This document shows positions 30,705 to 32,837 of a stretch of DNA of 64,000 nucleotides, one piece after another. The notes beneath the pieces were generated by a model that was given only the letters and a program-made list of their open reading frames with translations, was not told the DNA's origin and did not search any database. The stretch is from Synechococcales cyanobacterium CNB (GTDB lineage: Bacteria > Planctomycetota > Phycisphaerae > Phycisphaerales > UBA1924), in assembly GCA_030263455.1 (NCBI GenBank), contig SZOZ01000004.1, positions 124,001 to 188,000 on the forward strand, written 5' to 3'. The translations under genes and the position numbers were made by a program. Numbering within the stretch: position 1 is the first letter of the stretch; every line of letters begins with the position of its first letter.

Positions 30705-30722
30705 CGTTCCTCTCCGTCTTCG

Positions 30723-30740: not shown

Positions 30741-30762
30741 AGCCTACGCCCCCGACCCAGAA

Positions 30763-30797
30763 GCCCAAAAGCAAAGACCCCGGCTCGCGGGCCGGGG
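30763..30797 (-). terminator. Intrinsic terminator (attenuator) in the thrS leader
   Basis: On the minus strand a seven-base-pair all-GC stem, CCCCGGC/GCCGGGG (30791-30797 with 30778-30784), six-base loop, followed by TCTTTGCTTTT. It ends about 60 bases before thrS. The 5' arm can instead pair with CGGGGCG (30833-30839) at the end of the leader peptide, giving mutually exclusive structures as in amino-acid operon attenuators. Confidence 0.7.
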
Positions 30798-30829
30798 CGG
30801 GTACGGTCGGTCCAACTGGCGAACCGCCA

Positions 30830-30925
30830 CTACGCCCCGCCCGGTTCGGCGGTCGTCGTCGAGGTGGTGGCGGCGGCACGGCTTGCGTTCACAGCCTCAC
30901 ACTCTACGCCGGATGACCCCACCAT
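30830..30925 (-). CDS. Threonine-rich leader peptide upstream of thrS
   Basis: A 31-codon frame, ATG 30925 to TAG 30830, lying in the otherwise gene-free region before thrS. Residues 20-25 are TTSTTT (ACC ACC TCG ACG ACG ACC), five Thr codons in six, inside the context RAAATTSTTTAEPGGA. A Shine-Dalgarno-like GGTGG lies just upstream of the ATG; a GTG at residue 12 is another possible start. Composition and position match leader peptides of ribosome-mediated attenuation such as thrL, where slow translation of Thr codons at low charged tRNA-Thr lets the antiterminator form. Function is inferred, not shown. Confidence 0.6.
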   Translation of the reverse strand: MVGSSGVECEAVNASRAAATTSTTTAEPGGA

Positions 30926-30976
30926 CCCGATCCACCCCAGACCCTCGCTACGAACAACCTGCCGCAAAATCCTCTC

Positions 30977-31005
30977 TTGACAGATATATCGGCAACCGAT
31001 ATATT
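30977..31005 (+). promoter_or_regulatory. padR promoter and PadR-type operator
   Basis: TTGACA (30977-30982), 17 bases, TATATT (31000-31005): nearly consensus. A perfect inverted repeat ATATATCGG-CAA-CCGATATAT (30984-31004) fills the spacer and runs into the -10 element, exactly where a repressor would block RNA polymerase. Such AT-rich dyads are typical of PadR operators, so autoregulation of the following operon is likely. The thrS leader transcript may start from the other strand of the same region. Confidence 0.8.
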
Positions 31006-31036
31006 GGTTCGAGCGTACATCACCCCGGAGACCGAC

Positions 31037-31408
31037 ATGCCACGCCGAGCCGACCCGGACCCCAACGAACTCGTCGTCCTCGCCGTCCTCGCCGACGAGC
31101 CTCTCTACGGCTACGCGATCGCGCGCCGCGTCGAGGTCCGGTCCAACGACCGTGTCCGCCTTACCCCCGGCATCCTCTACCCCCTCCTCAAACGCCTCGA
31201 AAGCGACGGCCTCCTCACGGCCACCTGGGAAACCGTCCGCAGCGACCGCTCCGCCGAAAACGCCGAGGGCCGCCGGCGAAAGTGGTACCGCATCTCTCCC
31301 AAGGGACGCCGCCGTCTCGCCCAGCGCATCGACGCCCACCGCGAGTACCTGCGCGCCATCGAAGCCTTCCTGCCACCCGGAGCAACCGGCACGGAGGCCA
31401 CGGCATGA
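31037..31408 (+). CDS. PadR-family transcriptional regulator
   Basis: A 123-residue winged-helix regulator: ELVVLAVLADEPLYGYAIAR, TPGILYPLLKRLESDGLL with the recognition helix, RRRKWYRISPKGRRRL wing, and a C-terminal helix for dimer formation. PadR proteins repress neighbouring genes and often themselves; a dyad overlapping this gene's promoter fits. ATG 31037 is the first sensible start after the promoter. The stop overlaps the next gene's start (ATGA). Confidence 0.9.
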   Translation: MPRRADPDPNELVVLAVLADEPLYGYAIARRVEVRSNDRVRLTPGILYPLLKRLESDGLLTATWETVRSDRSAENAEGRRRKWYRISPKGRRRLAQRIDAHREYLRAIEAFLPPGATGTEATA

Positions 31409-32754
31409 CCACCGACACCGCCCCGCGCGCCGCCCCCCCCGCCGCCCCGCGCACGTCGGACGCGATCGACGCCTGGCTCGACCGGCTCGTACGCCTCGTG
31501 CGCTTCCGCCCGCGCCAGGCTCGTGAGATGCGAGAGGAACTCGACGGCCACCTCCGCGATCGCGTCCGCGACCTCATGCTCGCAGGCCACGACGAACCCG
31601 AAGCCGTCCACCGTGCCATCGCCGAACTCGGCGACCTCGCCCTCCTCGCCAGAAGGTACCGCGAAGCACAGTCACCCCGTATCAGGAGACTCGCCATGCA
31701 CACCGCGTTCATCGCTCTCGCCGGCGCCGGCCTCGCCCTCGGCACGTTCAACCTCTCGCACCAGCCCGAGCCTCATCCGGAAGAGTCGGCGCGAATCATG
31801 CTCGAACGGCTCATGCTCAAGCCCTACGTCGACGAAACCCGGGGAACGATCTCGTTCAAGGCCGAGTTCGACACCGAGGGCGGCTACGTCCCGCTCGGCA
31901 TCGACGCGACCTTCCGCCTGGCGCCGGAACCTGACGACAACAGCGCACGCGTCGCCGCCGACACGCCCGATCTCACGCTCGCCGACTTTCTCACGCTCCT
32001 CGCTTCCGAGTCGGGCGCGCGGCTGTACGTCTACTGGGCTGACGTCGCGCAAGCCTTGCTTTCGCCCGACTCCGAAGTCCCCCCGCTCCCGCTCGAAGGA
32101 CAGAGCATCGCCCGCGCCCTCACGATGGCCAACGACATCCTCGGCCGCACCGGCCAGGACCGCATCGACTTCCGCATCGACAACGGCCTGATGGAGTTCG
32201 CCCGCGGAGAGTTCTTCGACCGTCGCGAGCGTCGCCTGGCAACCTATGACGTTGCCGCCATCCTCAACGCCGGTGACCCCCTCGAAACCAGCGCGGAGTC
32301 CGAGACGCTCATCAACCTCATCACCACGATCGCCGAGCCGGACGCCTGGCAGCAGAACGGCGGCGACCTCGCCTCCATCTACGCCGCCGGACGCAAGCTC
32401 TTCGTCAACGCCCCGCCGCGCGTCCACGAGCGCGTCGCCTGGGTTCTCGAAGAACTCCGCTCACAAGACCGGCGCATCGGCAAGACTATCGCACCGGGAA
32501 CTTCCGACATCCTCATCCCACCCCTGCTCATGCACTTGGAAGGTGAGATTCGACAGGCCACCGGCCCGTGGGTCTTCCCGCTCGCTCACACTCCCGCCCA
32601 CGACGCCGCGCGCGTCGTCGAGTCCGTCGTCGGCCGCATCGGTGGTCGGGCCGCCGCGGACCCACGCACAAACTCGGTTCTCGTCGCGGGCAACCGCACG
32701 ATCCACGACCTTGCCGCGACCATCCTGGCCGCGATGGACACATCCAAGCCGTAA
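31405..32754 (+). CDS. Permease-prefix / secretin-like domain membrane protein
   Basis: A 449-residue protein. Residues about 15-95 match the permease prefix domain 1 seen next to PadR genes (AIDAWLDRLVRLVRFRPR, EMREELDGHLRDRVRDL, EAVHRAIAELGD). One membrane helix follows (AMHTAFIALAGAGLALGTF). The remaining extracytoplasmic part has two secretin N-domain-like blocks: TYDVAAILNAGDPLE with LINLITTIAEPDAWQQNGGD and FVNAPPRVHERVAWVLEEL, then AHTPAHDAARVVESVVG and DPRTNSVLVAGNRTIHDLAA, typical of GspD N1/NolW repeats. There is no pore-forming secretin domain. Translational coupling to padR suggests a regulated unit; function unknown. Confidence 0.75.
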   Translation: MTTDTAPRAAPPAAPRTSDAIDAWLDRLVRLVRFRPRQAREMREELDGHLRDRVRDLMLAGHDEPEAVHRAIAELGDLALLARRYREAQSPRIRRLAMHTAFIALAGAGLALGTFNLSHQPEPHPEESARIMLERLMLKPYVDETRGTISFKAEFDTEGGYVPLGIDATFRLAPEPDDNSARVAADTPDLTLADFLTLLASESGARLYVYWADVAQALLSPDSEVPPLPLEGQSIARALTMANDILGRTGQDRIDFRIDNGLMEFARGEFFDRRERRLATYDVAAILNAGDPLETSAESETLINLITTIAEPDAWQQNGGDLASIYAAGRKLFVNAPPRVHERVAWVLEELRSQDRRIGKTIAPGTSDILIPPLLMHLEGEIRQATGPWVFPLAHTPAHDAARVVESVVGRIGGRAAADPRTNSVLVAGNRTIHDLAATILAAMDTSKP

Positions 32755-32783
32755 TCCCCCGTCCGCGACACCGGAACCGGCAC

Positions 32784-32837
32784 GAGGCCCCGCCGCTTTG
32801 ACGGATCGCCCACGATCCGTCAAGATGTCGGGGCCTC
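32784..32837 (+). other. Long two-part hairpin upstream of nrdR
   Basis: Outer arms GAGGCCCCG (32784-32792) and CGGGGCCTC (32829-32837), then a symmetric five-by-five internal loop, then inner arms TTGACGGATCG (32798-32808) and CGATCCGTCAA (32813-32823) around a four-base loop. All 20 base pairs are perfect. It lies between the secretin-like gene and nrdR, ending 34 bases before the nrdR start. Confidence 0.75.

Follow-up and report, generated by a model that had tools for sequence, protein, structure and literature searches.

In the enterobacterial attenuators thrL, hisL, trpL and pheL, an open reading frame rich in cognate codons is combined with an intrinsic terminator, and the position of the ribosome on this frame sets which of the mutually exclusive pairings is formed. 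One of them, pheL, controls a synthetase gene. The gene of threonyl-tRNA synthetase, thrS, is also controlled by other means, i.e. by the T-box leaders of Firmicutes, in which the tRNA is sensed by RNA, and by the operator of E. coli thrS, which has tRNA-like domains and is bound by ThrRS as a repressor. Both of these act on thrS, but without a leader peptide.

Leader peptides in front of synthetase genes have also been described in other bacteria. In Streptomyces lividans TK24 a leaderless thrL with two Thr codons (MKRVRPFLETTPGFVPAR) was proposed upstream of thrS, with no clear terminator in the section that describes it, and the same source places leuL, trpL and alaL before synthetase genes (PMC8079986). 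According to a survey from 2010, leader peptides had until then been known only from Proteobacteria and Actinobacteria, the case added by that survey being the His leader peptides that precede hisS paralogues in bacilli (PMC2965389). A survey of short leader genes from 2016 covers Planctomycetes, and the sections of it considered here do not mention thrS (PMC4833913).

Here we analyse the region upstream of thrS in a stretch of 64,000 nucleotides of planctomycete DNA, henceforth the window. Comparison with related sequences makes it highly probable that a ribosome-mediated transcription attenuator lets this gene respond to charged threonyl-tRNA. In other words, this planctomycete thrS is probably switched on when threonine-loaded tRNA is short, and dozens of related species share the arrangement. 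The features in common with the enterobacterial attenuators are a short Thr-rich ORF and an intrinsic terminator, together with a proposed pairing that is set by the ribosome. The differences are that the leader has no Shine-Dalgarno sequence and is probably leaderless, that its target is thrS alone and not threonine biosynthesis, and that the candidate pairing region sits on the leader stop codon. The S. lividans thrL is, as the present leader probably is, a leaderless Thr-codon peptide before thrS, but in the description considered here it has neither the up to nine consecutive Thr codons nor the covarying terminator that we find (PMC8079986). The His leaders of bacilli are likewise leader-peptide attenuators before a synthetase gene; they differ in amino acid, phylum and sequence, and the relevant part of the text deals with neither Planctomycetes nor thrS (PMC2965389).

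The leader is encoded on the minus strand and is flanked by thrS on one side and by a divergently oriented PadR gene (31034-31408; PF03551) on the other; Table 1 lists its parts. The first-pass annotation of this DNA, made from the letters of the window, had described a terminator with a T-rich tail before thrS and a seven-base complementarity between the terminator 5' arm and CGGGGCG. Both are present: the leader frame ends with GCC GAA CCG GGC GGG GCG TAG (stop codon at 30832-30830), and the CGGGGCG in it (30839-30833) matches, as its complement, the CGCCCCG in the 5' arm. The best duplex between this arm and CCGGGCGGGGCG has a free energy of -20.0 kcal/mol in the window.

Table 1. Features of the thrS leader region, in window coordinates, with the basis of each assignment.
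Feature	Position	Strand	Basis
thrS, threonine--tRNA ligase, 707 aa	28581..30704	-	TIGR00418, 615 bits vs cut-off 384
Shine-Dalgarno-like GGAGAGGA of thrS	30708..30715	-	sequence
TAGGCT, possible internal -10 for thrS	30741..30746	-	in 3/3 genomes of the genus
T-rich tail CTTTGCTTTT	30767..30776	-	terminator scan and sequence
Terminator hairpin GCCCCGGC-ccgcga-GCCGGGGT	30777..30798	-	identical in both same-genus relatives; stem covariation
Segment 3' of the leader stop, TGGCGGTTCGCCAG	30816..30829	-	folds; GGCGG kept in L002 and L003
Leader ORF with probable GTG start, 20 codons and TAG: VNASRAAATTSTTTAEPGGA	30830..30892	-	-10-like box and same-genus relatives
Candidate antiterminator strand CCGGGCGGGGCG, last four leader codons	30833..30844	-	duplex with terminator 5' arm
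Thr-rich stretch ACC ACC TCG ACG ACG ACC, proposed stalling site	30851..30868	-	sequence
-10-like box TAGAGT of the predicted leader promoter	30901..30906	-	8 nt before GTG 30892

The leader had originally been read as a frame of 31 codons. The frame from ATG 30925 is indeed open and the Thr codons are where they were reported, but translation probably begins at GTG 30892, which leaves 20 codons. The start was moved because of the position of the -10-like box and because of the relatives in the same genus. In the other two genomes of the genus (L002 and L003; the window's own locus is L001) the GTG at the equivalent place follows TATAGT or TATACT, and the leader peptides are VIDCRATTTTTTTTTAGPGGV and VNAHLASTTATTTTAGRAGG. 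The BLAST similarity of the window to these relatives begins only at 30882 (L002) or 30895 (L003), i.e. the box in the window is kept by position while its flanks are unlike. The 52 leaders found in the order (see below) start with ATG in 47 cases, GTG in three and TTG in two. A TANNNT box is located 4-11 nt before the start in 51 of them, and for 42 of the 52 the gap between the end of the box and the start is 6-8 nt, a count inflated by the fact that the box helped to pick the start where several were open. At other starts in the same regions TANNNT occurs at 6-8 nt in 16 of 1561 cases. Shine-Dalgarno-like 5-mers were found at positions -16 to -4 of none of the 52 leader starts. The -10 spacing and the lack of a Shine-Dalgarno sequence make a leaderless leader mRNA likely, and the mRNA of the window is probably of this kind, with GTG 30892 as its start. 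Judging from the same spacing, the first transcribed base would coincide with the leader start codon or be only a few bases away from it.

Viewed alone, the window gives little indication of an attenuator. It contains 3 terminator-like sites in 12 kb as compared to 4.2 expected, two of the three being one and the same hairpin, that of the leader, and shuffled sequences fold as well as the leader does (z 0.41). Both observations would agree with a chance origin, i.e. with GC-rich DNA of low complexity that happens to yield a Thr-like frame and a hairpin before thrS. The significance of the leader comes from its conservation in the genus and in the order. L002 and L003 retain the Thr-rich ORF and have an identical hairpin and tail, so that the loss of conservation in close relatives, which the annotation had named as one outcome that would speak against its reading, did not occur.

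For the order we used 115 thrS upstream regions, namely the matches in 61 relatives and those closest to the window's ThrS in its own family, a non-random sample whose related genomes are not independent of one another. Three of the 118 loci (L021, L058 and L070) were left out because the match fell short of the protein start, because the contig ended or because the ThrRS was a different one, as in L058 (43% identical). A short ORF with at least five Thr codons in eight is present in 49 of the 115 regions, while the same threshold selects none of the 115 reverse complements and four among 1150 dinucleotide shuffles. A terminator within 350 nt was detected in 46 of these 49 regions versus 10 of the remaining 66; the controls gave 6 in 115 reverse complements and 9 in 1150 shuffles. 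When the 115 regions were scanned for at least six codons of any one amino acid in eight, Thr was found 38 times, Ala twice, Pro and Asp once each and the other 16 not at all. The runs of three or more Thr codons are mixed in 47 of 49 cases (ACC 188, ACG 150, ACT 40, ACA 13), which indicates that it is the amino acid, and not a repeat in the DNA, that is conserved. Two leaders share the longest run, which consists of nine Thr codons. Of the 50 leaders with a terminator, 48 have it at a distance of 26-36 nt from the leader stop, and in the terminator stem of 50 relatives 414 of 441 cells are paired, with 45 double changes. The comparison of sequences thus establishes a conserved Thr run, a conserved and covarying terminator, a fixed geometry and the -10 spacing. 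The conservation and co-occurrence of the elements throughout the order, the mixed Thr codons and the covarying stem all argue against chance, which is refuted by the order-level counts and retains next to no probability.

At the lower threshold of four Thr in eight, 52 of the 115 regions have a leader. In terms of families, here given by working labels, the leaders are distributed as 43 of 91 in f1 (the family of the window), 1 of 1 in f3, 5 of 6 in f4, 1 of 6 in f5, 2 of 5 in f6 and 0 of 6 in f2. The other 63 regions, including all six of f2, have no Thr leader at this level. We note that the upstream regions of L101, L102 and L104 have a terminator like that of the leader-bearing relatives and no ORF with four Thr in eight; these are possibly decayed or unusual leaders.

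The proposed mechanism can be outlined as follows. Transcription would start at or near the leader start codon, and a ribosome would initiate on the leaderless mRNA. With ample threonyl-tRNA the ribosome would reach the stop codon and occupy the final codons and some ten bases past them, whereupon the terminator 26-36 nt downstream would form and transcription would end. With scarce threonyl-tRNA the ribosome would stall on the Thr codons; the stop-codon segment, left free, would pair with the terminator 5' arm, and RNA polymerase would read into thrS. Three parts of this scheme are inferred, namely that initiation is leaderless, that the ribosome stalls and in which direction expression responds. 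Threonyl-tRNA could in principle also be sensed by a T-box, or ThrRS could bind its own mRNA, as is the case for thrS elsewhere, but the Rfam models, the T-box included, have no match in the vicinity of thrS (two matches elsewhere are attributable to chance) and the run of Thr codons needs translation. We consider control of this type extremely improbable at the present locus.

An alignment of thrS upstream regions of Phycisphaerae had been put forward as a check of the attenuation logic. Such a comparison bears out the Thr runs and the covariation of the terminator, and the Thr runs, terminator and geometry are conserved in five of the six families sampled in the order, a pattern expected from ribosome-mediated attenuation by threonyl-tRNA and not from chance. 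The antiterminator comes out weaker, with mixed results in the pairing tests. In our model, which is less firmly supported at this point, the antiterminator would lie around the leader stop codon, from stop-13 to about stop+16, shifting between clades and including CGGGGCG. In nearly every leader the best partner of the terminator 5' arm is found at the leader stop. When the ribosome was represented by occlusion in the folding, the mean probability of the terminator was 0.96 with the ribosome at the stop and 0.52 with the ribosome stalled at the second Thr codon, and the 5' arm was more sequestered in the stalled state than in the at-stop state in 47 of 50 leaders. The corresponding values for the window are 0.98 at the stop, 0.32 in the stalled state and 0.96 without a ribosome, the last one being high since in that state the stop region is paired to the Thr-codon region. 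The segment TGGCGGTTCGCCAG is a candidate for an alternative part of the antiterminator, and for the partner of the Thr-codon region when no ribosome is present.

Moreover, the stop segments pair better with the terminator arm of their own clade than with those of other clades (p 0.0025, 24 clades), in a test that used hand-made clades and an arm lengthened by 4 nt on each side and that was designed after a narrower one with the bare arm. Repeating it with 30 random picks of clade representatives gave a median p of 0.013 and a largest p of 0.047. As for the controls, two upstream segments gave p values of 0.60 and 0.93, and the terminator 3' arm, the positive control, pairs better with its own partner. 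The narrower cross-locus test with the bare 5' arm gave p 0.05 on all 50 loci and 0.32 on 10 clusters. In a position-wise comparison own arms did not pair better than foreign ones, though the pairing potential peaks at the stop codon. The stalled state lowered the probability of the terminator relative to shuffled spacers in no more than 12 of the 24 clades (Wilcoxon p 0.11), and the effect was strong (probability 0.17 or less) in 7 of the 24, the window's genus among them. Within this genus the values are 0.00 for L002, 0.00 for L003 and 0.32 for L001, the last being compared to 0.72 for its shuffles, 20% of which are as low. Consensus folding of the truncated leaders revealed no common structure, as is expected if the register of the antiterminator shifts between clades.

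In roughly one clade out of two the terminator persists at folding equilibrium even when the ribosome is stalled, so that one may ask whether the Thr leader works otherwise than by a switch at the stop codon, for instance through Rho, through the coupling of RNA polymerase and ribosome alone, or through the translation of thrS. This is unlikely in view of the kept and covarying terminator, the cross-clade pairing and the difference between the terminator probabilities of 0.96 and 0.52. The terminator/antiterminator switch is plausible everywhere and well supported in some of the clades.

The TAGGCT box (30746-30741) lies between the terminator and thrS, so that some transcription of thrS may bypass the attenuator. 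It is even conceivable that the leader and the terminator are real and that thrS is driven mostly from this internal promoter, with attenuation playing a minor role here. All three genomes of the genus retain TAGGCT, and a TANNNT box is found in the interval in 19 of 46 relatives as compared to 9.0 expected. However, the other 27 of these 46 relatives have no such box, and four more had an interval that was too short to examine; the leader and the terminator are kept in all of them just the same, i.e. selection keeps the attenuator. A predominance of the internal promoter therefore seems quite improbable to us, and we retain attenuation as the main reading.

In the genome of the window (G000) no threonine synthase was found above the family cut-off, and there was no match for acetolactate synthase. 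The organism is possibly an auxotroph for Thr and for branched-chain amino acids, in which case regulating the synthetase may be the principal way in which the cell can still respond. Threonine auxotrophy was also considered as the reason for the leader and was dropped, as the leader and threonine synthase are not associated in 56 relatives (Fisher p 0.42).

Leaders of this kind are also seen outside the order. In the rest of the class 12 of 54 further thrS upstream regions have at least four Thr in eight, and additional loci added more. The Thr leaders belong to the families f11 (7 of 15 examined) and f15 (11 of 15 examined); none was found in the other class families sampled. Beyond the class, the 80 named loci listed gave 62 usable upstream regions, 18 being left out because of a match short of the protein start or a contig end, and one of the 62 has four Thr in eight, without a terminator.

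The leaders of f15 have a different architecture. Their peptides, e.g. MRQNTTTTTC, MNTTTTTTTTC and MFTTTTTTRC, are not followed by a hairpin of the window's kind. Instead, a segment that spans the leader start codon and the bases directly upstream of it pairs with the sequence preceding a T-tract about 60 nt after the stop; this is seen upstream of thrS in L435, L437, L441, L442, L463, L465, L466, L468 and others. The own arms pair with a mean of -27.0 kcal/mol versus -16.0 kcal/mol for mismatched ones (11 of 13 leaders, two having no candidate), the own pair is the lowest in 8 of 11 and none of 20000 permutations reaches the own-pair value, a comparison which favours own pairs as the T-tract was picked for the best pairing with its own leader. 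In this case a ribosome that stalls at the first Thr codons would cover the 5' arm of the terminator, and would thereby block the terminator directly, with no need for an antiterminator.

Other synthetase genes were inspected in the same manner. Upstream of ileS, 6 of 29 relatives (L288, L290, L295, L299, L306 and L311) have a short ORF with at least three Ile in eight codons and a -10-like box before the start, e.g. MKPLTAAISIRISITKPH and MTMKPTIAIRIRGPR, and in L295 this is followed by a GC hairpin and T6; no Ile leader of ileS was found in the window's genus. The upstream regions of pheS (26, at most 2 Phe in eight) and hisS (27, at most 2 His in eight) contain no convincing leader, and those of alaS (27) have up to 5 Ala in eight, without a -10 box; the counts for these three genes presuppose a flank of 1,500 bases, an assumption that may not hold for three shorter loci. 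Two of the 27 leuS upstream regions have four Leu, without a terminator. None of these four genes is thus preceded by a convincing leader of its cognate amino acid. On balance we are inclined to regard leader-peptide attenuation of synthetase genes as a general strategy of the Phycisphaerae that is built in more than one way, i.e. as a leaderless Thr leader with an antiterminator at the stop codon in the order of the window, as a Thr leader with the terminator arm at the start codon in f15, and as a leaderless Ile leader before ileS in some of the relatives.

With respect to novelty, ribosome-mediated attenuation as a kind is already known, and so is a weaker case of a leaderless thrL before thrS in Streptomyces. 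In the open full-text literature we found no paper that describes a Thr leader of thrS for the Planctomycetota; subscription papers lie outside this scope, including Vitreschak 2004 and Lopatovskaya 2010, which may hold cases of thrS. The first-pass annotation had called such attenuation new in Planctomycetes, and this stands for the phylum within the literature found; it has to be qualified in that a leaderless thrL before thrS had been proposed in S. lividans, according to the section on that gene (PMC8079986). As far as the literature found goes, what is new is the occurrence in Planctomycetota, its breadth, the Ile leader before ileS in some of the relatives and the second thrS architecture in f15. 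If the proposed reading is true, leader peptides that sense amino acids reach a phylum for which none was found in the open literature, and the presence of two architectures for thrS in one class would mean that such switches arise easily. More than 50 natural leaders make the code testable, in terms of the number of Thr codons, the distance to the stop and which pairing is used.

Some further observations concern the surroundings of the leader. A perfect palindrome, GTCGTCCCCGGGGACGAC (30740-30723), is found just before the ribosome site of thrS; the idea that it might be an operator was dropped because it is not kept in L002 or L003. In the window thrS and nrdR are separated by two genes (30896-32795), a PadR gene and one that encodes a Secretin_N domain. 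These two genes are missing in both relatives of the same genus, where nrdR and thrS adjoin each other in divergent orientation, which indicates that about 1.9 kb, ending beside the leader promoter, were either inserted in the window or lost in the relatives. The relatives also have an inverted repeat, TTGAC-N16-GTCAA, between nrdR and thrS (from 311 in L002 and from 1253 in L003). This repeat is kept beside nrdR in the window (32798-32823) and is possibly the site of a regulator.
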